A stretch of 64,000 bases of DNA. Origin: an uncultured Shimia sp. (GTDB lineage Bacteria; Pseudomonadota; Alphaproteobacteria; Rhodobacterales; Rhodobacteraceae). Below are positions 27,717 to 63,531 of this stretch, piece after piece. A program made the position numbers and the translations under genes. The notes beneath the pieces were generated by a model. The model had not been told where the DNA came from, did no database searches, and saw only the letters and a program-made list of their open reading frames with translations. Each line of letters opens with the position of its first letter. The stretch's first letter is position 1. Where the stretch lies: assembly GCF_947498095.1 (NCBI RefSeq), contig NZ_CANMJE010000003.1:372001-436000 (forward strand). The letters are read 5' to 3'.

Positions 27717-29516
27717 TTACTGACCGGTGACATTGATCTGGGCGTCAGCGCTGTCCAGAGCCATTGTCGTGTTCAGTGTCACGTGGTGGAACCGCGCATC
27801 GGCAAAGTCATCATGGATCGCAAAGCCAACCGTATAGGTCTTGCCTGCTTCCAGCGCGACATCACCGACCCCTCCGGCCAAGGGACGCGAGAAGACAATC
27901 GTCCACATCCCGGCTGAAAGCGTGGCCTCAGAGGCAAATGCGCCTTCGTTGTTCACCCGGTTCTCCAGAAGATAGCCATTTTCACCGCTACCATCAGCAT
28001 AGACACGCATCAGGTCCATAAAGGTTCCATCCGCGAGATACTGCGCGATTTCGTCTTCGCTCTTCAGCTGATCCCAGCCACCCTGAGCCTTACCACGGCG
28101 GCCTTTGACTTCAACCTTGGTCCGGCTTTCGGTGAGATACTTGGTGATCGTACCTTCTGCTTGCAGGCGTGCGGCCACATCTCCATTGGCAGCAATGGCT
28201 TCAGCACCTGGATCAAACGGCATGTAGGTATTGTCCGCGTGACAGGTGGCCCAGCAACCGGCCTGTTCGCCCATTTCGATACCGTTGCCGGTGATCATCA
28301 TTGCGACTTTGATCTGGTTGTCGGGATCCATCTTGCCGCCGTCCACGAAGGGTGCCGGCGAATGTGGCGTGTCTGGCCATTGCATGCGCACATAAAGGTT
28401 TTCACCGTCATGGGCCGCTTGCACGGTTGCAGCAATTGTGCCGCGCTTGCCGGGGATCGGGGTCGGCTCAAGCTCGTCCTCTTTGCCACCACCACCTGCG
28501 GCGATTTTAGTGCCGATGGCATCCAATTCCGCTGCGTGGCAAGTGGTGCAGGCGTCACCGCCTTTGGTCAAAGGACGGGCGCCGCCGTGCTGCTTGCCGT
28601 TTTGCACAAACTCGAATGATGCCTGACCCGGATAGAACAGGGTCATGTCAGCTTCGGGCACAGCGGCCCAATCGACATTTGGTGCAACCGTACCAGCGGC
28701 GCTGGCAGCTGCCGGGGCAGTGCCCGCGGCTTTGGCTTGCTCTTCAGCCACAGCCGCTTCAACCGCCGAGGCGATCTGTGCCTGCAAGGCCTCTTGCTGT
28801 GCTTTGGCGGCAGCCTTGGTCGCAGCGGCTTCTTCGGCCTCAATCGCCTCAATCTTGGCAAGACTTTCCAGATAGGCCTGCGGCACGTCACGCATAAACT
28901 TGGGGTTCGGCGCTTCCAGAGCTTCCAGATATTCCTCGTCCGCGCGATCACGCAGATCCGAGTGTGCAATACCCTTGTGGCAATCGATACAGGTCTGACC
29001 CGCTTTCATCGCGTTCAAGTGTTGTGCACGCGCACGCGGCTTTTGGAACTCGGGCAGCATGGAATCAAAGTGGTGACAGTTCCGGCATTCTACCGAGTCC
29101 GTCTTTTTCATCCGCTCCCATTCGTTCATCGCGAGTTGCAAGCGGTGCTTGTCGAACTTCTCAGGCGTGCTGATTTTGCCTGTGAGTTTGCCCCAGACCT
29201 CTTTCGAGGCCTTGATCTTGCGGATGATCTTATGCGTCCAGTCCTTGGGCACGTGGCAGTCAGAACAAACGGCGCCAACGCCGGATCTGTTCACGTCGTG
29301 AATGGTGCCCTTATACTCTTCGTACACATAGTCATTCATCTCGTGACACGAGATACAAAACTGTTTGGTGTTTGTGGCTTCCATTGCGGTGTTGAATCCG
29401 CCCCAGAAGATAATACCGGCGACAAAGGCCACCAGGACGCCTCCGATCGGCATGCCCCAGAGGACATAACGCCGCCAGAGGGGCTTTTTCTTTTCCGCTT
29501 CATTGGTCTGGGTCAT
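27717..29516 (-). CDS. nirT: NapC/NirT tetrahaem cytochrome fused to extra haem domain
   Basis: This 599-residue membrane-anchored multihaem cytochrome is about three times the length of ordinary NirT. A membrane helix lies at about 20-40. Four haem sites of the NapC/NirT domain follow: CISCH (54), CSDCH (84), CRNCH (144) and CIDCH (176). An Ala/Glu-rich, probably helical linker spans about 215-278. The C-terminal domain has CTTCH at 323 and a CWATCH (CxxxCH) at 421, and looks like the haem-binding domain of ethylbenzene/DMSO dehydrogenase gamma subunits. It probably carries electrons from ubiquinol to periplasmic partners such as NirS (inference). GGAG lies 7 bases upstream of ATG. Confidence 0.85.
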   Translation of the reverse strand: MTQTNEAEKKKPLWRRYVLWGMPIGGVLVAFVAGIIFWGGFNTAMEATNTKQFCISCHEMNDYVYEEYKGTIHDVNRSGVGAVCSDCHVPKDWTHKIIRKIKASKEVWGKLTGKISTPEKFDKHRLQLAMNEWERMKKTDSVECRNCHHFDSMLPEFQKPRARAQHLNAMKAGQTCIDCHKGIAHSDLRDRADEEYLEALEAPNPKFMRDVPQAYLESLAKIEAIEAEEAAATKAAAKAQQEALQAQIASAVEAAVAEEQAKAAGTAPAAASAAGTVAPNVDWAAVPEADMTLFYPGQASFEFVQNGKQHGGARPLTKGGDACTTCHAAELDAIGTKIAAGGGGKEDELEPTPIPGKRGTIAATVQAAHDGENLYVRMQWPDTPHSPAPFVDGGKMDPDNQIKVAMMITGNGIEMGEQAGCWATCHADNTYMPFDPGAEAIAANGDVAARLQAEGTITKYLTESRTKVEVKGRRGKAQGGWDQLKSEDEIAQYLADGTFMDLMRVYADGSGENGYLLENRVNNEGAFASEATLSAGMWTIVFSRPLAGGVGDVALEAGKTYTVGFAIHDDFADARFHHVTLNTTMALDSADAQINVTGQ

Positions 29517-29708: not shown

Positions 29709-31385
29709 TTAGGTGACGTGGTTCGAACGGTTGTAGACGTTGAACTTACCGGTCGGAGCATACAGCCCTTTGACACGACCGATTTCTTCAAGAGTCTTGG
29801 CGTCGTAGATCACCATTTCACCATTTGGCTCTTTCGAAGTCGCACGGTTCCATTTCGAAACCCAAACTTCGGTGCCGTCTTTGTTGAACTCGAAGTGAAC
29901 AGCAACGTTGCCTTCTTCTTCAGTGATCTGGATCGTTTTCACGATTTCGCCGGTCTCTTTCGAGATGACTTGAACAGATTGCTGAACTTCAACTTCTGGG
30001 TGCTTTGTTTGGTCAGCCCAGTAGTAGTCCGAATTCGGGTGAGTCCGGATGAAGAGGCCTGCGCCGTCAGTTTCGACTTCGTAGCAGGTTTTCCATGCTT
30101 GATCAGGATGACCTTCTGGATCGTTACCCCAAACAGTTACAGTACCTTCACCAAGGTGAGTTGTACCGGCAACGGGGCCACAGTTAGGATCGTCCCAGTT
30201 CGCGCCGGGGCCGGGGTGCGGCAGCGGTGCGGTGTCGATCATGGCTTCCAGCTTGCGCTCTTTGGTGTCGACAACAACCATTTTGTTCGATGCGTTTGCA
30301 GCGATCTGGAAGTAACGACCTGTTGGGTCAAAGAACCCATCGTGCAGGAATTTTGCCGAGTTGATCTTGTCGATCCGCAGGTTGTCGAGATCCGAATAGT
30401 CAACTTGCCACAGTTGGCCAAGTTCTTTTACGGCTACGATCCAGCTGGTCTCATTAGGTGTTGTGTAGATGGCGGCCACACGGGCTTCTTCTACATAGTC
30501 ACCGTCAACGTTCACACCACGTGTCGAAACAACTTTCAGTGGTTCCATGGTCATCGCGTCAACGATGGCGAAGTGTGGAGGCCAGTAAGCGCCACCGATG
30601 ACATATTTACCGTCGCCGGAAACTGCCACGTCGCGGGCGTCATAGCCAATCGAGACTTCCGAAACCAACATCTTGTCTGGGGTTTGCCAGAGGTCGATTT
30701 TGGTCATCTTGCCGTCGCGACCCATGGTGTACCAGAAGCGGCCAGGGTTCTCAGGCTCGGTGACTTTGTGGTGCTCAGACGCTTTCAGAACGTGCACAGC
30801 ATATCCTGTTGGGATGTGTGCCAGAACTTCTTTGGTGTCGCCGTCGATGACAGCTACTTTACCTACGTCACGCTCGATGACGACGAAGAAGTTTTCCCAG
30901 TTGCGGCCATGCAGTGGCTCGGTTGGGTAGTCAGCTTCTTCAACATAGACCTTGCGGGTCTCTTTCATCTGAGCCAGCGACATTTCTGGTGGTTTTGGCG
31001 GATCCATCTGGATGTAGGTCGCCATGTCTTTGATTTCTTGCTCGGTCATAATGTCCGAGAAGTTGTTCATCCCGCCTTCGGTTCCCCAGGCGATGATTTT
31101 TTCAAGGCGTTCCTGACCCAGTTTCAGGGTGCCAGATTCGGTTACAGTACCGTCTGCGTTCTTGCTCTTAACGACAGGCTCAAGGCTTTTGCCGGTAGCG
31201 CCTTTACGCAGAACGCCGTGGCAACCTGCGCAGCGTTCAAAGTACAGCTGTTTGGACGCTTCGAAGGCTTCCTCACTCAAAGAGGGGCCTTCCGCGAGCG
31301 CGGGCGCGGCTGCCGAGCCAAGCAGGAGTGCGAATCCGACTCCTAGTGCCCGACGAGATTTTTTGTAGGTGATTCCAAGCGACAT
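29709..31385 (-). CDS. nirS: Cytochrome cd1 nitrite reductase NirS
   Basis: This 558-residue periplasmic enzyme reduces nitrite to NO. A signal peptide (GVGFALLLGSAAAPALA) is followed by a cytochrome c domain with CAGCH at 52-56 and the eight-bladed haem d1 propeller. Candidate d1-site histidines are in GYAVHVLKASEHH and LPHPGPGANW. I start at the ATG read from 31385, with GGAGAG 6 bases upstream. The frame stays open to 32123 but that would run into divergent nnrS. Two NNR boxes lie upstream and a strong terminator lies downstream. Confidence 0.96.
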   Translation of the reverse strand: MSLGITYKKSRRALGVGFALLLGSAAAPALAEGPSLSEEAFEASKQLYFERCAGCHGVLRKGATGKSLEPVVKSKNADGTVTESGTLKLGQERLEKIIAWGTEGGMNNFSDIMTEQEIKDMATYIQMDPPKPPEMSLAQMKETRKVYVEEADYPTEPLHGRNWENFFVVIERDVGKVAVIDGDTKEVLAHIPTGYAVHVLKASEHHKVTEPENPGRFWYTMGRDGKMTKIDLWQTPDKMLVSEVSIGYDARDVAVSGDGKYVIGGAYWPPHFAIVDAMTMEPLKVVSTRGVNVDGDYVEEARVAAIYTTPNETSWIVAVKELGQLWQVDYSDLDNLRIDKINSAKFLHDGFFDPTGRYFQIAANASNKMVVVDTKERKLEAMIDTAPLPHPGPGANWDDPNCGPVAGTTHLGEGTVTVWGNDPEGHPDQAWKTCYEVETDGAGLFIRTHPNSDYYWADQTKHPEVEVQQSVQVISKETGEIVKTIQITEEEGNVAVHFEFNKDGTEVWVSKWNRATSKEPNGEMVIYDAKTLEEIGRVKGLYAPTGKFNVYNRSNHVT

Positions 31386-31446
31386 GATCACTCTCCGTTT
31401 GCTGGTGAGGCAAGGGCGATATGATGGTCTTTCCCGATTCTGTTCC

Positions 31447-31460
31447 TTGACTTTCGTTAA
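31447..31460 (-). promoter_or_regulatory. FNR/NNR box of nirS
   Basis: TTGACTTTCGTTAA is centred about 68 bases before the nirS ATG. Activation at -41.5 would put the start of transcription about 27 bases before the ATG. It probably binds the Dnr-type regulator encoded at 38977-39684. Confidence 0.7.
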
Positions 31461-31509
31461 CTGCTCTCGCGATTTCGTGAAGTTCACTGCCGAAAATGCC
31501 TGCCAGCCT

Positions 31510-31523
31510 TTGACAAATGTTAA
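31510..31523 (+). promoter_or_regulatory. FNR/NNR box of nnrS
   Basis: TTGACAAATGTTAA lies 124 bases before the nnrS start and 63 bases from the nirS box. It could drive nnrS or act as a second site for nirS. The orientation is assigned by distance only. Confidence 0.6.
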
Positions 31524-31646
31524 GTTCACAAGTTCACGGGACTCTATTGTGTGTGCAAAGGGCGCGCGTGATCTGGCGAGTATTGTCGTCATTGCGCGCC
31601 CTTGATCCGGATCACCTAAGATCCAAAACATGGCGGAGGTCATACC

Positions 31647-32837
31647 GTGACGGTACTCAAGAGGGTTTTCGGAGAAGGCTTTCGCATCTTTTTCCTCAGT
31701 GCGGGCATATACGGTGTTTTGACTGGTAGCGTTTGGGCCTTGTGGTTGATGGCGCAGGATGGGTCCGGTTGGGATCCATTGGTCGCCGCCAATCCGCAGA
31801 TGTGGCACGCCCACGAGATGATCTTTGGCTACGCAACGGCTGCGCTGGGCGGTTTCTTCCTGACGGCAGTTCCTAATTGGACAAATACGCCCGCGGCACG
31901 AATAAACTATCTGACACTCGCCGCTTTGCTGTGGTTGATCGGTCGTGTGGCGATGTGGTTTTCGGGCCTCATCCCTGCCGGCGCGCTCGCGGTTTGTGAT
32001 CTGGCCTTTGTTCCGGTTTTGGGCGTGAAAATCGCGTCGCAGCTGGTTAAGCGCCCCAAACCGCAAAACATGATGTTCCTGGCGATACTCTTGCTGCTTT
32101 GGGCCAGCAATCTGATGGTTCATCTGGACCGGATGGGCGCGATCGAGGATGGCGAATCCGCAGGGCTGCGCGGTGGCCTATTCTCACTTTGTGCGATGAT
32201 TGCAATTCTGGGTGGGCGGATCACACCGGCCTTTACCCGAAATGCCATGAAGCGCGAGGGTGAACCCGAAAATCGCTGGCCAATGTCTTACAAACCTGTC
32301 GAGCGTGCGACAGTTGTCTTGGCGCTGGCATTGCCTGCTCTTGTGATCGCGCAAACGCCCGAAGCCTTGCCTGCCGTGGTAGCCATTGGCCTCGGCCTGC
32401 TTCAGGGCGCCAGGCTGCTGTCATGGCGTGGGGCATGGACACTGCGCCAACCGATTCTTTTTGCGCTGCACCTTGGTCTTGGCATGTTGGGCCTTGGGTT
32501 GTGTCTTTGGGGGCTCGCCGGGCTCGGGCTTGGGGATGAGGTCGCGGCCCTTCATCTTGTTGGAATTGGTGGCGTGGGCGGTATGACATTGGCTGTGATG
32601 AGTCGGGCTTCGCTCGGACATTCCGGACGCCCCCTGACGGCACCGCGTCCGGTGGCACTGGCCTATGGATTGCTGGCACTTACGGCAATTCTGCGCTGGT
32701 GGGGTGCTGGGTTGGAGGGAGACTCCTACCTGCCAGTTATGGCCCTAGTGTCCATCCTCTGGAGCCTCACTTTCCTGCTGTATCTGGTTGCCCTGTGGCC
32801 GACATGGTTGCTCCCGAAGCAACGCGGCGAGACCTAG
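31647..32837 (+). CDS. nnrS: NnrS family haem-copper membrane protein
   Basis: This 396-residue polytopic protein of the NnrS family has about 12 membrane segments. Family blocks seen are NPQMWHAHEMIFGYATAALG (His-rich) and GGRITPAFTRNAM. NnrS proteins are linked to NO stress and denitrification and are thought to bind haem and copper. The exact role is unclear. The start is GTG 31647 with GGAGG 7 bases upstream. It is divergent from nirS and separated from norC by a terminator. Confidence 0.9.
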   Translation: MTVLKRVFGEGFRIFFLSAGIYGVLTGSVWALWLMAQDGSGWDPLVAANPQMWHAHEMIFGYATAALGGFFLTAVPNWTNTPAARINYLTLAALLWLIGRVAMWFSGLIPAGALAVCDLAFVPVLGVKIASQLVKRPKPQNMMFLAILLLLWASNLMVHLDRMGAIEDGESAGLRGGLFSLCAMIAILGGRITPAFTRNAMKREGEPENRWPMSYKPVERATVVLALALPALVIAQTPEALPAVVAIGLGLLQGARLLSWRGAWTLRQPILFALHLGLGMLGLGLCLWGLAGLGLGDEVAALHLVGIGGVGGMTLAVMSRASLGHSGRPLTAPRPVALAYGLLALTAILRWWGAGLEGDSYLPVMALVSILWSLTFLLYLVALWPTWLLPKQRGET

Positions 32838-57186: not shown

Positions 57187-57214
57187 AAAAGGGCGCCGAA
57201 GAAGGCGCCCTTTT
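57187..57214. terminator. Terminator of mod operon
   Basis: AAAAGGGCGCC and GGCGCCCTTTT form an 11-bp stem with a 6-base loop. Flanking A and T runs let it work in both directions, so it may also end the minus-strand 12-haem operon. Confidence 0.85.
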
Positions 57215-57234: not shown

Positions 57235-57612
57235 TTAGTTGCAAGGGAACTCATCTTTCAGGGTTCCCAAGACGGCCTCATCCGCAGGCATCGCTCTGCG
57301 GGCGGAATAGTCTTTGTACACCCAGCGGATGAAGGCCCAGCGAACTTCGTCCGCCGTGTTCACCTCGGGGGCGCAGATGCCCATTGTTGCTTTCGCGTCG
57401 ACTGCTTTTAGGGCCCCGACAAAGCCGAGCATGTATTGCTCACACTCCAGTTCGGGAACCTCGCCGTTGCGGGCGTCACTGTCGGCTTCCTGGCAGGGTG
57501 CCATGAGTTCGCCAGCCAGATAAGGCGTGCCGCCGTGGCCATCGGCAAACGCCGGGGCTGCCGCGATTGCGCCTGCGAGGGCCAATGGTGCGATAGTTAG
57601 AAAAGCGCGCAT
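57235..57612 (-). CDS. Small secreted Rap1a/Tai-like protein
   Basis: This 125-residue protein has a clear Sec signal (LALAGAIAAAPAFA). The mature part has four cysteines (PCQE, LECEQY, GICAPE, EFPC) and the helix stretch YMLGFVGA, which resembles the Rap1a/Tai fold. Rap1a is a type VI immunity family, but no secretion genes are present here, so a structural or chaperone role toward the neighbouring cytochrome is as likely. I start at the ATG read from 57612. The longer frame to 57735 overlaps the cytochrome gene. Confidence 0.72.
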   Translation of the reverse strand: MRAFLTIAPLALAGAIAAAPAFADGHGGTPYLAGELMAPCQEADSDARNGEVPELECEQYMLGFVGALKAVDAKATMGICAPEVNTADEVRWAFIRWVYKDYSARRAMPADEAVLGTLKDEFPCN

Positions 57613-57679: not shown

Positions 57680-60019
57680 TTACTCGCCTGCAAGCGAGTG
57701 GATGGCCTTGTCCATGACTTCCTTGTGCTGCTCATTGGTCAGGAACGCCGGAGTGTTCACTTTGTTCCAAAGAGTTTCATCAGTCATGTTCTGGTGACAT
57801 CCCATACACAGGCCAGTGCGTTCCATCTTCTCGCGCATGTCCTGCGGGAGAGGACCGGTCAGATCCCAGTGGGAGCCGACGGTGACCAGCTGCTCGCCGT
57901 CTTCGGTGACGATGCGGCTAAGGTCGTGGTCCAAGGTCGGAACAGGCTGCGACTGATACTGATACTGGTCAGGCAGGATGGTGCCGTCCGCAGCTTTCAG
58001 ATCGATCACAAAGCCTTTGTCGTAGCCTTGCAGGAAGCGACCGCCAGAGATGCCGTAGCCCAATGCTTTCGGGTTGTTATGGCAGCTCTCGCAGGTGCGG
58101 GCTTCGCGGCCAGCAGTGTGCGGTTGCACGGCTGCATGGTCGAGGCCCTTGGTGCCGCCTGCGTCCGGTGTCATCCAGGTCTCGTTGTGGACGATGGTAT
58201 TGCCGTCCTTATCGATTACCGTGGTGATAACCTGACAGCCTGGCATCAGCGGGCTGACGCGGCCTTCACCGTTGATCCCGAGGGTCGGCTCTTCCCAACG
58301 CAGGTAAGAGCGTGTCTCGGACACTTTACCGGCAGAGGTCAGACCATTGGTGCCAAGCGGGGCATCACCTGTGAGACCATTGTCCTCGCGGGCATTGGCG
58401 TTGGTGATCCAGTCGACATCGGTTTTGCCTTCGGAATAGTCCACGGTGATGTGGCAGCCATAGCACTGCGGTGCCCAGTCAGCGTGACAGGCATAGCATT
58501 CCATGCTTTCCATGTGCTGGCCAACTGATTGCATCGCAACCTGTGCATCAGGCGATTTCCACGTGCCGTTGTCGGCGATGGTTTTCAGAACCGGGATTTC
58601 AAAGTCCAGACCCGAAGCCGAGTGCAGGATGACCTTGTCGCCATCTTTCACAACGTTACCCAGCGGGTTGCCGCGTGCCGACAAGAGGAAGCCATCGCGG
58701 GCCTCATAGTCGGTGGCAAACATCACGGTTTCATCCTGAGCGTCTTCGCTCAAACCCCGCGCTGGCCAGTCAGACGTATCGGCCTGGAATTCCTCACCAT
58801 ACCCCAGCGGAAGATCCCAAGGTGCTGCCGAAACAGTCCCGTGACAGTCTTCACACTCGATTTCCACCTGTGCAAGCGTGGTGCCCGGCAAGTTGCCGTC
58901 GCCGTGCATGTCGATGGTGGTGTGGCAGTCCTGACAGAGCAATCCACCTTCGGGGTTGCCCGGACGCGATTCCGTCGCGTGGTGCAGGTCTTCCTTGATG
59001 TACAGGTACTTTTTGGTGTGCAGCTTAGGTTGCTTGCCACCTGTTGGGCTGTACGGAGAGCCATAGGGGAATTCCATGATACCCTGATAGCTGACGCCAA
59101 TCCGCTTGCCGCGGTTGTGGCAGCTCACGCAGGATTCAGTCGGGATACCGGACCATTCCTTGTCACCATGCACAACTTTCGACTTGCGTGTCGCCTGCAT
59201 CTGGTGAGTCAACAGCTTGCCGGGTTGCTCTTTTGAGATTGTGGGGTCGCCACCTTCATAAAGACCTTCGTTCGAGTAGGGCACGTGACAGGACGAACAG
59301 CCTGCACCGCGATAATCACCGCGTTTCTCACGACCATTTACACCAACATGACAGCGCTGACATTGCTGACGCGAATAGGTAATACCGGCCAGGTTCGGGT
59401 GTTCTGAGATGGCGTCGACATCAACTTCCGGTACTTGCTCCATCGAGTCGACCAACTGGTCGGGATGGGCCGCGGCATAAGCCACCATGTACTCTTTATA
59501 GGCGTCGGTCCCGATCTGAGGCTCAAAGCCATCTTCGTCGACCAGATCGTAGTTGCCGTAAACGGACCGGCGCGTGTCGATCACACCCCAGCTCCAAAGG
59601 TTGCCCTGCAGTTTACCGGCTTCGGTGTTCATCAGCGACAGTTTCAGACGTTCCGCATAACCATCGTGACATTGGCCACAGGACTTGTCGGCAATCCACA
59701 CCGCACCCGGATCCGGATAGAAGGTGTGTGGGCCGTCGGCTTCGGCCAGATCAGCGACCGTGCCTGAGTGGGCTTCTTCTGCGGTGAGACCCGTAGGGGT
59801 ACCACCGTGGCAGATCACGCAGCCAGCGGGATCGCCGTAATCAGGCCCGAGGGCCTCAATCTGTTCCATCATGATGCCGCCGGTGAATTTTTCAATTCCC
59901 TCGTGGCAGCTAAGGCAGCCTTTTTCGTTGGCTACCGCCTCATCGACCGTCTCTGGAACACCTTCGGCATAAGCTGCCGTTCCAAAGAGAATCGAGAGCA
60001 AGAAAACGAGTTTTCTCAA
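57680..60019 (-). CDS. Secreted 12-haem cytochrome c of unknown function
   Basis: This 779-residue protein has a Sec signal (LVFLLSILFGTAAYA) and twelve CXXCH sites: CLSCH (35), CVICH (67), CGQCH (114), then CQRCH, CSSCH, CVSCH, CQDCH, CEDCH, CYACH, CYGCH, CESCH and CMGCH near the C-terminus. No CXXCK or other special catalytic haem site is visible. No membrane helix follows the signal, so it should be soluble in the periplasm or bound to a partner. I could not match it to NrfA, octahaem tetrathionate reductase, hydroxylamine oxidoreductase or MtrC. Neighbours (Rap1a-like protein, Crp/Fnr regulator, ccmFHI) suggest an anaerobic respiratory role. Confidence 0.88.
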   Translation of the reverse strand: MRKLVFLLSILFGTAAYAEGVPETVDEAVANEKGCLSCHEGIEKFTGGIMMEQIEALGPDYGDPAGCVICHGGTPTGLTAEEAHSGTVADLAEADGPHTFYPDPGAVWIADKSCGQCHDGYAERLKLSLMNTEAGKLQGNLWSWGVIDTRRSVYGNYDLVDEDGFEPQIGTDAYKEYMVAYAAAHPDQLVDSMEQVPEVDVDAISEHPNLAGITYSRQQCQRCHVGVNGREKRGDYRGAGCSSCHVPYSNEGLYEGGDPTISKEQPGKLLTHQMQATRKSKVVHGDKEWSGIPTESCVSCHNRGKRIGVSYQGIMEFPYGSPYSPTGGKQPKLHTKKYLYIKEDLHHATESRPGNPEGGLLCQDCHTTIDMHGDGNLPGTTLAQVEIECEDCHGTVSAAPWDLPLGYGEEFQADTSDWPARGLSEDAQDETVMFATDYEARDGFLLSARGNPLGNVVKDGDKVILHSASGLDFEIPVLKTIADNGTWKSPDAQVAMQSVGQHMESMECYACHADWAPQCYGCHITVDYSEGKTDVDWITNANAREDNGLTGDAPLGTNGLTSAGKVSETRSYLRWEEPTLGINGEGRVSPLMPGCQVITTVIDKDGNTIVHNETWMTPDAGGTKGLDHAAVQPHTAGREARTCESCHNNPKALGYGISGGRFLQGYDKGFVIDLKAADGTILPDQYQYQSQPVPTLDHDLSRIVTEDGEQLVTVGSHWDLTGPLPQDMREKMERTGLCMGCHQNMTDETLWNKVNTPAFLTNEQHKEVMDKAIHSLAGE

Positions 60020-60084: not shown

Positions 60085-60100
60085 CCTGATAATTATCAGG
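60085..60100. promoter_or_regulatory. Perfect 16-bp palindrome in divergent promoter region
   Basis: CCTGATAATTATCAGG is an exact palindrome about 66 bases upstream of the 12-haem gene and 198 bases upstream of the Crp/Fnr gene. It differs from the NNR boxes and may bind another regulator. The rest of the 278-base region shows only a weak FNR half-site (60187-60200). Confidence 0.5.
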
Positions 60101-60297: not shown

Positions 60298-61080
60298 ATG
60301 TATGACGCAAACACGAGGCCAAGTTCGGCCTCGGCTTGCCCCTTGCGGGCAAACCTATGCAAGAACCCTGTTTGTGGCAGTGTTCCTGAGATTGCCAAAC
60401 GGTCTAACCAAGACATGATTGCGCTCAAACGCGGTGAGCGACTGACCGTGCGAGACGGGGCGTGTCAAAGGATTTGGGTGGTCATCTCCGGCGTTGCGGC
60501 CACATGCGCGGGGATGGAGGATGGTCGCCGCCAGATCATCGGCCTTGAAACGCCCGGCCATGTGGTCTGCGGGCTGGCATCCGTAACAAATTCCGAAAAC
60601 TGGCTTGAGGCGCTGAGCGACTGCAACATCTGCGAGTTAAGCCTCGAAGGGGTAACCGGACCGCTTGATGACTACCCCGAACTGGTCTCCAGTCTGTTTT
60701 GGCTGATCCACGGTCGACTGCAGGCCGGAGCTTCGCAGATGGTGATGTTGGGGCGCCTCGATTCCGTTGAAAGGGTGACCCTGTTCCTTTTGGAAATGGC
60801 CATGCGCATTGGGACAGCCGCAGTTGGCGGCGTACGGGTCGACCTGCCCATGACCCGCGAAGATGTGGCCGACTACCTTGGCCTCAACACCGAAACCGTG
60901 AGCCGTCTCTTTACCAAGTTGAAAAAACGCGGCCTCGTGAGTTTTCCCAACCGAAGCACCTTTGTCGTGCCGGAAATCGAGGCACTGGAACGGCGTTTGC
61001 CGGTGCAATACGCCCAGCCCCAATACACGCTGCCCCCTCAGGTGGTTGCGGCAGCCCAGGAGCATTACAATGTACGCTGA
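60298..61080 (+). CDS. Cysteine-rich Crp/Fnr-family regulator
   Basis: This 260-residue protein has a Crp-like sensor domain and a FixK/Fnr-type HTH (MTREDVADYLGLNTETVSRL). The N-terminus has cysteines at 14, 21 and 26 in CPLRANLCKNPVCG, with further cysteines in the sensor domain (such as SDCNICEL). In Fnr the cluster is C-x2-C-x5-C plus one more, so this spacing (x6, x4) is unusual. It may bind an FeS cluster or a thiol signal (inference). GAGGGG precedes the ATG. Its 3' end overlaps ccmF by 11 bases. Confidence 0.85.
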   Translation: MYDANTRPSSASACPLRANLCKNPVCGSVPEIAKRSNQDMIALKRGERLTVRDGACQRIWVVISGVAATCAGMEDGRRQIIGLETPGHVVCGLASVTNSENWLEALSDCNICELSLEGVTGPLDDYPELVSSLFWLIHGRLQAGASQMVMLGRLDSVERVTLFLLEMAMRIGTAAVGGVRVDLPMTREDVADYLGLNTETVSRLFTKLKKRGLVSFPNRSTFVVPEIEALERRLPVQYAQPQYTLPPQVVAAAQEHYNVR

Positions 61081-63049
61081 GATTGGGCACTTCGCCCTTA
61101 TTCTGGCGCTCGTCGCCGCCGTTTTGCAATCTGTCATCCCGATCTGGGGTGTGCGCGCCGAAAATGCCGCCGCCATGCGCTTTGCCGATAATGCCGCACA
61201 GATTCAGTTCCTTGGGGTGGCTGTCGCCTTTGCCATGCTGACGCGCGCCTATGTGGTGTCGGACTTCAGCCTTGTGAACGTGGCGATGAACAGTCACTCG
61301 GCGAAACCGATGCTCTACAAAGTCACCGGCGTCTGGGCCAATCACGAAGGCTCTATGCTGCTCTGGGTGCTGATCCTGACGCTCTTTGGCGTGTTGATCT
61401 CGATCTTTGGCCGCTCGGTGCCGGTGACGATGCGATCTGTGGTTCTGGCCGTACAGGCGATGATCGGCGTCGCCTTTCTTCTATTTATCCTGTTGACTTC
61501 TAACCCCTTTGACAGGCTGCCCAATCCACCGCTGGACGGGCAAGGCATGAACCCCTTGCTGCAAGACATCGGCGTCGCGTTGCACCCACCACTTTTGTAC
61601 TTGGGCTATGTCGGTTTCTCGACGGCCTTTTCCTTTGCGGTTGCGGCGCTGGTCCGGGGTCAGGTCGACCCAAGCTGGGCGCGCTGGATGCGTCCCTGGG
61701 TGCTTTTGGCTTGGGCGGGCCTGACGGCAGGGATCGCTCTAGGGTCCTGGTGGGCTTATTACGAACTTGGCTGGGGCGGGTTCTGGTTCTGGGATCCGGT
61801 CGAGAACGCCTCGTTCATGCCGTGGCTCTTGGGGACGGCGCTGTTGCACTCGGCCATCGTGGTTGAGAAACGCGCCTCACTTCTGGCCTGGACCATTCTC
61901 TTGGCCATTCTGACCTTTGCGCTCTCGCTTATTGGAACTTTCCTTGTGCGCTCGGGCATCCTGTCGTCCGTGCACGCCTTTGCCAATGATCCCGAGCGCG
62001 GCGTCTTTATCCTCTTGATCCTGTGCATCGCCATCGGTGGCGCGCTTACGCTCTTTGCCGCGCGCACCAACAAACTGACCGAGGGCGGGTATTTCGCAAT
62101 GGTCAGCCGCGAAGGTGGGCTGTTGTTGAACAACGTCCTCTTGTCTGCAGCCACAGCCATTGTCTTTGTTGGCACGCTTTACCCTTTGGCGCTGGAATTG
62201 GTGACTGGTGACAAAATCACGGTCGGCGCGCCCTACTTTAATCAGGCCTTCCTGCCTGTCTTTGGCTTTGCCATGATGTTTGCGGCCATTGGCCCGTTCC
62301 TGTCGTGGAAACGCGCCAACAAGACCCGGGCGGCGCGGCTCACGACGCTGGCTGCGGTCACAACCGCGACCCTTGGCGTTGTCATCATCGCCATATTTGG
62401 CGTGCCAGACGTGGTCAGCCTATTCGGCATCGCTGTTGCCCTGTTCCTTGCTGTTGCGACGCTGATTGACCTTGGTCAGCGTATCGGCATCGGAAAATCG
62501 CCCTTTGCCACGTCGCTGCGCCGCATGGTCGGTCTGCCGCGGTCTGCTTGGGGGCTGTATCTGGGACACCTCGGTCTTGCCATCGCCGCGGCAGGAGTTG
62601 TGGCCGCAGGTCTTTGGAAAGTCGAAGAAATTCAGGTCACCCAGATCGGAACTCCGGTGTCTGTCGGAGCCTATGAATTCACGTTGACAGGTGTTGAGAG
62701 TGCCAAGGGCCCCAACTATCAGTCTTCGCTTGCCACGGTCACGGTCACGCGTGGTGGTGACTTTGTCACCAACCTGCACCCCGAGCGCCGCTGGTATCCA
62801 GTTGAGAAAAAACCGACCACCGAGGCGGGCATCGTCACCGTCTGGCATGGCGACTACTACGCCGTGCTCGGCGACCCTGCCGCGGCAGGCGGCTTCGTGA
62901 CCCGCTATTACTACAATCCGGGCGTGCCGTGGATGTGGCTTGGCGCTGTCATTATGACCCTTGCCGGTTTGATATCTCTGGCAGATCGCCGCCTGCGCGT
63001 GGGCGTGCCTTCGGCACAGCGCCGCTTGGCAGCGCAACCGGCGGAATGA
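61070..63049 (+). CDS. ccmF: CcmF, haem lyase for cytochrome c maturation
   Basis: This 659-residue membrane protein with about 15 helices has the haem-handling WWD motif (WGGFWFWDPVENASFMPWL) and external histidines. CcmF with CcmH and CcmI attaches haem to CXXCH motifs. I chose ATG 61070 with AGGAG 8 bases upstream. The frame is open back to 60962 inside the regulator gene. ccmE, which often precedes ccmF, is absent here. Confidence 0.94.
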   Translation: MYAEIGHFALILALVAAVLQSVIPIWGVRAENAAAMRFADNAAQIQFLGVAVAFAMLTRAYVVSDFSLVNVAMNSHSAKPMLYKVTGVWANHEGSMLLWVLILTLFGVLISIFGRSVPVTMRSVVLAVQAMIGVAFLLFILLTSNPFDRLPNPPLDGQGMNPLLQDIGVALHPPLLYLGYVGFSTAFSFAVAALVRGQVDPSWARWMRPWVLLAWAGLTAGIALGSWWAYYELGWGGFWFWDPVENASFMPWLLGTALLHSAIVVEKRASLLAWTILLAILTFALSLIGTFLVRSGILSSVHAFANDPERGVFILLILCIAIGGALTLFAARTNKLTEGGYFAMVSREGGLLLNNVLLSAATAIVFVGTLYPLALELVTGDKITVGAPYFNQAFLPVFGFAMMFAAIGPFLSWKRANKTRAARLTTLAAVTTATLGVVIIAIFGVPDVVSLFGIAVALFLAVATLIDLGQRIGIGKSPFATSLRRMVGLPRSAWGLYLGHLGLAIAAAGVVAAGLWKVEEIQVTQIGTPVSVGAYEFTLTGVESAKGPNYQSSLATVTVTRGGDFVTNLHPERRWYPVEKKPTTEAGIVTVWHGDYYAVLGDPAAAGGFVTRYYYNPGVPWMWLGAVIMTLAGLISLADRRLRVGVPSAQRRLAAQPAE

Positions 63050-63060
63050 GGAGCGAACCG

Positions 63061-63531
63061 ATGTTGAAGTTTCTTTGCTCAGCCCTTGTCGCCCTGACCC
63101 TCGCCACACCGGCGTTTTCGATCAATCCCGGCGAGATGTTCGAAGACCCCGCCCAAGAGGCCCGCGCGCGCGAGATTGGTCGCCAACTTCGGTGTATGGT
63201 CTGTCAGAACCAATCGATCTTTGACTCTAACGCAGGCCTCGCCAACGACCTGCGCGTCTTGGTGCGCGAGCGGATGCTCGAGGGTGATACGGACGACGAA
63301 GTGCTTTCCTATGTGGCCGACCGCTATGGCGACTACGTGTTGCTGGAACCTACCAAGTCCGCCAAAAACGCGATCCTGTGGCTGACCCCGGCTGGTGCTC
63401 TCATTTTTGGACTACTGGGCTTTGCCCTCTACATTCGGCAGCGCAAAGAGCCTCAGGCCGTTGAGGCTCTGACGGACGCGGATCGGGCCGCTGCCAAGCA
63501 CCTTCTCAAACAAAGGGATTCTAAGCCATGA
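63061..63531 (+). CDS. ccmH: CcmH, apocytochrome c thiol reductase
   Basis: This 156-residue periplasmic protein has a signal peptide (ALVALTLATPAFS) and the redox motif CMVC at Cys45 and Cys48 (LRCMVCQNQSI). A C-terminal membrane helix lies at about 100-122. It reduces apocytochrome thiols before haem attachment. GAGGAGC precedes the ATG, 11 bases after ccmF. Confidence 0.94.
   Translation: MLKFLCSALVALTLATPAFSINPGEMFEDPAQEARAREIGRQLRCMVCQNQSIFDSNAGLANDLRVLVRERMLEGDTDDEVLSYVADRYGDYVLLEPTKSAKNAILWLTPAGALIFGLLGFALYIRQRKEPQAVEALTDADRAAAKHLLKQRDSKP

Follow-up and report, generated by a model that had tools for sequence, protein, structure and literature searches.

The gene at 57680–60019 of the window (the whole 64,000-nucleotide stretch of DNA analysed) encodes a 12-haem c-type cytochrome. 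Its sequence points to a soluble periplasmic multihaem enzyme that would most likely serve an anaerobic or micro-oxic respiration as terminal reductase, a reading to which we give an even chance. Terminal reduction is the best fit because of the conservation of the protein, its Fnr-type neighbour, its private maturation genes and the quinol-dehydrogenase neighbours. A first-pass annotation of this DNA had proposed either a terminal reductase or an electron store; the former is plausible, if unproven, and the latter is retained as the main rival. In alphaproteobacteria the cytochrome forms a unit with a Rap1a-fold secreted protein, a divergent Fnr-type regulator and a CcmF from a separate clade. 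The features of the locus are as follows.

57187–57214, strand not assigned: 11-pair stem-loop beyond the end of the Rap1a-like gene, trailed by TTTTTT when read on the minus strand; may act as terminator for the gene pair
57235–57612, minus strand: Rap1a-fold secreted protein of 125 residues (Pfam PF18602, E = 1.2e-11; alignment; fold)
57680–60019, minus strand: 12-haem c-type cytochrome; open frame of 779 residues with a TTG start
58235–58237, minus strand: codon of Cys595, the sole cysteine outside the haem motifs, present in all 75 of the aligned sequences
60087–60098, strand not assigned: Fnr/FixK-type box TGATAATTATCA, located 5' of the cytochrome gene
60298–61080, plus strand: divergent Crp/Fnr-family regulator (Pfam HTH_Crp_2, E = 3.8e-17)
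60962–63049, plus strand: CcmF/NrfE-family haem lyase (CcmF_C, E = 1e-101; TIGR00353, 618.7 bits, over cut-off)
62929–63531, plus strand: CcmH/NrfF-like subunit (TIGR03147, 84.9 bits, below the cut-off of 159.2)

The cytochrome gene and its product

The sequence GGAAGGGAG, which by eye resembles a ribosome-binding site, lies just upstream of the TTG start. CXXCH motifs occur at residues 35, 67, 114, 220, 241, 297, 362, 389, 508, 519, 643 and 738, and, when the residues were shuffled 20,000 times, an average of 0.029 motifs and at most two arose; the twelve canonical sites in 779 residues claimed by the first-pass annotation are thus borne out. The N-terminus carries a single hydrophobic stretch (Kyte–Doolittle mean of 1.6 from residue 4), signal-like as that annotation had it, and no comparable second membrane-helix-like stretch occurs in the protein (maximum of 1.03 elsewhere), in agreement with its view that an anchor is absent. 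In our reading, the signal would be cleaved after the sequence AYA (residue 18), giving a mature protein of 82.6 kDa without haem, or 6.9 kDa per haem, with a computed pI of 4.8. The gene is present in a single copy in its genome, and a tblastn search of 72,556 plasmid records gave no match to it.

Four stretches are poor in haem: 119–219 (between motifs 3 and 4), 394–507 (8 and 9), 524–642 (10 and 11) and 648–737. The first three had already been named as possible non-haem domains, and the fourth had been overlooked. An AlphaFold2 model of the protein chain without haems (53 sequences; mean pLDDT 70.2, pTM 0.74) places helices at many haem motifs and β-strands at 443–475, 516–535, 561–630 and 670–714. 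The first stretch is predicted to contain helices with one short strand, and the other three β-strands with some helix.

Family, conservation and Cys595

A pattern-based scan across 84,980 species genomes yielded 145 relatives, of which the best 80 were kept and weaker ones left outside; these 80 are 53–85% identical to the cytochrome in the best segment. Members are labelled as Alpha- and Gammaproteobacteria, as Chloroflexota and as a handful of further phyla. The alignment comprises 75 distinct near-full-length rows of 89 homologous ORFs, window included; the omitted rows are the window itself twice (for which the query row stands), seven truncated sequences and six identical copies. A tree of 79 rows separates Chloroflexota from a mainly proteobacterial group and from a small group of Planctomycetota with two alphaproteobacteria. 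Rows labelled Deinococcota and Dehalococcoidia that fall within the mainly proteobacterial group are possibly mis-binned. The gene is found in four of 25 genomes of the window's genus, and within the window's family ten genomes out of 394 match the cytochrome, eight of them strongly; the carrier contigs in the family are titled as genera of the Rhodobacteraceae, Paracoccaceae or Roseobacteraceae. Such identity across phyla in a gene that is rare and patchy suggests a specific, useful reaction.

All twelve haem sites are kept in the 75 distinct homologues, with CX4CH instead of CXXCH in 12 rows (motif 3 in nine, motif 1 in three), and identity reaches 97% or more in 261 of the 779 columns. Histidines 84, 272, 334, 346, 347, 372, 466, 502, 634, 717 and 765, none of which belongs to a haem motif, are kept in 73–75 of the 75 rows. 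Cys595 lies in the haem-free, invariant block NGEGRVxPLxPGCQV (residues 583–597). The eleven histidines and Cys595 would make a possible set of twelve distal ligands, which is arithmetic and not proof, and conserved Met or Lys residues could be alternative haem ligands. Our best reading is that Cys595 would lie at or near the active site of an oxygen-controlled terminal reductase. Neither this invariant non-haem cysteine nor the distant relation to ExtM discussed below had figured in the first-pass annotation, and the same holds for the likelier start of the Rap1a-like gene given below.

A divergent relative (L125:8539–10827, genome G590) is about 41% identical to family members, carries ten haem motifs and adjoins frdABCD and an alanine-racemase-like gene. 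It has lost haem 10 (CYGCH to YLGYT) and haem 12, and Ile replaces Cys595; the other ten haems are kept and the block around position 595 is otherwise recognisable. Since all three vanish together, haem 10, haem 12 and Cys595 may work as one unit. With just one such relative, and that one on a long branch, this is only a hint, and, because His334, His347 and His765 are also missing, the loss does not single out Cys595. Separately, two ten-haem proteins of 1368 and 1290 residues (L129:6494–10600 and L130:7464–11336, respectively), both encoded beside other multihaem genes, share short haem stretches with the cytochrome family; that of L129 carries an LVIVD repeat.

The alphaproteobacterial gene unit

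Neighbourhoods were counted in 81 distinct loci, window excluded, with matches accepted anywhere in the fetched flank; as the 90 loci searched for nos and mod genes include six copies, short loci and three loci of weak relatives, those genes were counted by flank among the 81. Lineage groups were drawn from record titles, in which the labels of metagenome-assembled genomes (L038 and L040, for example) may be in error. Among 46 alphaproteobacterial loci, a Rap1a-like gene is present in 45, an Fnr match in 40 and CcmF in 37, the last two counts being limited by short contigs; the locus lacking the Rap1a-like gene (L054) ends inside the cytochrome gene. The corresponding counts for nine gamma- or otherwise proteobacterial loci are six, three and one, and none of the three genes was found in 23 Chloroflexota loci. 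The survey for these neighbours that the first-pass annotation had suggested thus gives a strong association in alphaproteobacteria, a weak one in gammaproteobacteria and none in Chloroflexota.

The start of the Rap1a-like gene was re-assigned from 57735, which overlaps the cytochrome gene, to the ATG at 57612, in accord with the alignment. Its four cysteines are kept in 58–60 of 60 rows. The AlphaFold2 model of the protein has a mean pLDDT of 86.7, and the seven best Foldseek matches to it are Tai4/Rap1a chains (probability 0.99–1.00, E = 0.02–0.10), with no match at E = 0.001 or better. The gene is co-oriented after the cytochrome gene and is followed by the stem-loop, so the pair is probably one operon; a stem-loop consensus scan found seven such sites in the region against 3.0 expected, with the site at 57187–57214 listed on the plus strand. 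The protein shares Pfam PF18602 and its fold with the Rap1a/Tai4 type VI immunity proteins. Unlike them, it is encoded directly after a respiratory cytochrome in all but one of the alphaproteobacterial loci, which makes an immunity role unlikely; it would escort or bind the cytochrome.

For the regulator at 60298–61080, the FixK and FnrL models scored below cut-off. Its N-terminus is cysteine-rich in the listed ORF (Cys14, Cys21 and Cys26), a feature that may provide iron–sulfur sensing of its own. The window contains two Fnr/FixK-type boxes of this kind, with 1.02 expected. When copies and truncated rows are excluded, 12 of 44 loci that have an Fnr match (window included) carry a perfect box in the 350 bases 5' of the cytochrome gene, as do three of 33 loci lacking such a match; among 380-base stretches drawn at random from these loci, 199 of 8800 do. 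The box is therefore enriched at loci with an Fnr neighbour, yet most of these (32 of 44) have no perfect box. At low oxygen, the Fnr-type regulator would switch the operon on.

The CcmF gene is the second copy in the window's genome, and its listed start overlaps the Fnr ORF, so that the true start is probably later. Each of the eight family genomes that carry the cytochrome encodes two or three CcmF proteins, one of which belongs to the cytochrome locus, whereas ten genomes of the family without the cytochrome have one (eight genomes) or two (two genomes). Three carriers outside the family (G407, G493 and G625) and the genome of the divergent relative (G590) have one only. In a CcmF tree (n = 42) of 18 sequences from cytochrome loci and 24 from elsewhere ('housekeeping' in that sense only), 17 of the 18 group apart, the exception being L053; the support for this group, 94/86, is below the starred threshold. 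A third type of CcmF (L153, L154 and L155, from G241, G005 and G013) forms a supported clade of its own, separate from the cytochrome-locus group and from the rest. CcmF and CcmH would attach the haems of the cytochrome. An odd haem site as the reason for the lyase was rejected, as every CH in the 75 rows lies within a CXXCH or CX4CH motif. The gammaproteobacterial and Chloroflexota cytochrome loci are mostly without CcmF.

Neighbours in other lineages and electron donors

The nine gamma- or otherwise proteobacterial loci also contain TorC-like pentahaem genes (two), TPR proteins (two), histidine kinases (two) and response regulators (four), some of them several kilobases away. In the 23 Chloroflexota loci we found TPR proteins (19), histidine kinases (nine), response regulators (ten), cytochrome b (three), Rieske proteins (three) and COX1-like proteins (five). 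A C-terminal membrane-helix-like stretch, defined by a simple threshold, is present in 17 of the 23 Chloroflexota cytochromes and suggests a membrane anchor. Two of the remaining six are cut by a contig end, and no other assessed row passes the threshold (L041, L050 and L054 lying outside the assessment). By our reading, the stretch appears to be preceded by a coiled-coil-like tail in the five Chloroflexota proteins inspected.

A COX1-like protein is encoded two genes downstream of the cytochrome in L063 (11983–13572) and also in L055, L060, L062 and L064. Its helix-VI CuB histidine is replaced in four of the five (kept in L062), HH reads VH in all five and the haem a3 histidine is replaced in four of four (L064 is cut short), while the haem a histidine positions are kept; these are the roles that we take the residues to have. 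In L063, this gene is followed by a QrcA-like pentahaem gene (80.6 of 180 bits) and then by what we read as an ActB-like start.

A TorC-like pentahaem gene adjoins the cytochrome in three gammaproteobacterial loci: L045 and L126, where the models gave 334 and 298.6 of 478 bits, and L051, which was assigned by similarity. L126, whose pentahaem gene comes in addition to the two counted above, has genes for cytochromes b and c1, and by similarity for a Rieske protein, on the other side of the cytochrome. L067 has an ExtP-like cytochrome b (283 bits, cut-off 290) with a Rieske protein, and homologues occur in L070 and L079. Genes of the bc1, bc-like or alternative-complex-III-like kind adjoin the cytochrome in L126, L067, L070, L079 and L063, the assignment to alternative complex III being partly our reading. 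NapC/NirT was rejected as a general donor within the window's family: it is absent from four of the eight carriers, so no single donor is common to all. The window's genome encodes two NapC/NirT proteins, and a quinol donor is therefore available there. One of the two, a possible quinol donor of 599 residues (27717–29516, minus strand) about 28 kb from the cytochrome, has an N-terminal NapC/TorC-like domain (TIGR02161, 266 of 310.6 bits); the adjacent 804-residue ORF at 29709–32123 has no NCBIfam match at 1e-20.

The bc-type neighbours also suit the main rival, in which the protein is no enzyme but serves as an electron hub or store, its twelve haems carrying electrons in the periplasm from bc-type quinol oxidases to several reductases. 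The lack of NapC/NirT in half of the carriers favours it as well, as does the position of ExtM in a cluster earlier called a bc complex, in which the role of the extra cytochromes was described as novel and open (excerpt of PMC2825233). The proportion of near-invariant columns and the long invariant haem-free blocks such as 583–597 are, however, more than would be expected of a carrier, and the private maturation genes and the partner in alphaproteobacteria argue in the same direction. The ratio of 6.9 kDa per haem, which also counts against a carrier, falls in an ambiguous range: an excerpt of PMC7096707 gives less than 5 kDa of protein per haem for pure electron carriers, more than 7 for catalytic proteins and 6.1 for octahaem tetrathionate reductase. 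We regard the hub as possible, if doubtful.

Denitrification and sulfur oxidation

A role in denitrification had been suggested by the first-pass annotation from the neighbouring nos, mod and ccm genes; in the window, nosR, nosZ, nosD, an apbE/nosX-like gene, modA and modC lie near the cytochrome. Among the other distinct loci with a downstream flank long enough to cover the corresponding position, nosZ relatives are found in none of 31 and modA in none of 62. Searches for modB and modC at other loci returned only 33–40% matches of the ABC-transporter type, and the fetched flanks stop short of the nosR position. Full-length NosZ is encoded by four of the eight carriers in the window's family (G000, G210, G005 and G007). 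Of the others, G029 and G359 (77% complete) give short weak matches and G126 gives none; G241, which does not appear among the matches listed, is scored as lacking NosZ. The four carriers without full-length NosZ are also those without NapC/NirT. The nos adjacency therefore looks like a local accident, and the cytochrome as a denitrification partner was rejected on the neighbourhood and the distribution of NosZ and NapC (n = 8 carriers); that it serves denitrification is highly improbable.

Alternatively, the protein could work in the oxidative direction, as a dehydrogenase passing electrons from a reduced sulfur or nitrogen compound to the c-type pool and on to a bc complex, alternative complex III or an oxidase. 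Thiotrichales, Chromatiales and lucinid symbionts are lineages with sulfur oxidisers. The best 80 of 145 relatives include carriers titled Thiotrichales, Chromatiales and a lucinid symbiont, and oxidase-like genes lie downstream in five of the 23 Chloroflexota loci, but catalytic ligands have been lost from the oxidase-like subunit. SoxB is over cut-off in six of the eight family carriers and equally common without the cytochrome (eight of ten non-carriers), and sulfur oxidation via SoxB was set aside as uninformative. With the Fnr-type neighbours and TorC-like quinol dehydrogenases pointing to reduction, we consider the oxidative direction unlikely.

Proposed function

As a terminal reductase, the cytochrome would receive electrons from quinol through whichever c-type donor the host provides (a TorC-like pentahaem protein, bc1, a bc-like complex or alternative complex III). 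These would run along the haem chain to a small oxidised substrate, at a reduction site that would include Cys595, near haems 10 and 12. Kinship with ExtM, together with Cys595, makes oxyanions of selenium, tellurium or sulfur our first guesses at the substrate. More tentatively, the family may represent an undescribed class of respiratory reductase, with the Cys595 thiolate at or on the catalytic haem, its own CcmF-type lyase in alphaproteobacteria, a soluble form in Proteobacteria and a mostly tail-anchored form in Chloroflexota, different quinol-oxidising complexes in each phylum and spread by gene transfer. No paper naming the family was found by title or abstract start among the listed matches from open-licence papers. 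Were the protein a terminal reductase, an anaerobic respiration for which no name was found would exist in marine alphaproteobacteria and in Chloroflexota.

Comparison with known systems

The HMM and structure searches that the first-pass annotation had proposed returned no close match to a characterised enzyme family. Its statement that the protein matches no multihaem enzyme holds insofar as no PDB match was obtained by phmmer or profile at E = 1 or by Foldseek (best E = 1.3; the model's mean pLDDT of 70 leaves room for a fold that was overlooked) and no NCBIfam model scored over cut-off; it needs qualifying for a distant relation to ExtM. This nearest named family (NCBIfam NF040943) gives 231.6 bits against a curated cut-off of 800 (E = 1.5e-68), from which the cytochrome would be a distant sister of ExtM and not an ExtM; no genome among 398 of the phylum sample has a match to the model over cut-off. 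ExtM (GSU2935) of the Geobacter ext cluster has 12 haems, as does the cytochrome (count from an excerpt of PMC5877670). The match spans residues 185–656 and an N-terminal stretch, and the model has 599 positions compared with 779 residues here. Nearby bc-type genes are common to the ExtM cluster and some cytochrome relatives. The window locus has CcmF, Rap1a-like and Fnr-type neighbours instead, and ExtI, ExtKL, ExtN, ExtO and ExtP were not recognised among the neighbours scanned there; the ExtP-like protein noted above occurs at L067 (homologues in L070 and L079).

The ext cluster encodes the porin ExtI and has been linked to selenite and tellurite through the phenotype of an extI mutant (excerpt of PMC5877670). 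This kinship, a putative porin encoded by the second gene downstream of the cytochrome in L053 and a weak, below-cut-off match to an MtrC-type domain are what would speak for a place in a conduit for extracellular electron transfer, as with the porin-linked Geobacter cytochromes. A porin was recognised nowhere else among the chosen neighbours scanned, the OmcA/MtrC model (TIGR03507) reaches only 15.5 of 209.3 bits and the C-terminal stretch of the Chloroflexota proteins suggests an anchor, all of which make a conduit very unlikely.

The terminal reductase reading invites comparison with the periplasmic reductases fed by TorC, NapC or NirT, and TorC-like genes do adjoin the cytochrome in the three loci named above. 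The cytochrome differs in being all-haem, with no molybdenum-enzyme domain found, and in lacking NapC/NirT in half of the family carriers. NrfA with NrfEFG and SirA/MccA with SirEFG are likewise periplasmic multihaem reductases that in some species have their own CcmF-type lyases, dedicated to their atypical haem motifs (excerpt of PMC6976685). In contrast to NrfA, CXXCK occurs in none of the 89 homologous ORFs; in contrast to MccA/SirA, none of the 75 rows has a free CH for a long-spaced CXnCH site, and there is no family match. A separate CcmF group that travels with a cytochrome of ordinary motifs would call into question whether such lyases are dedicated to odd motifs only.
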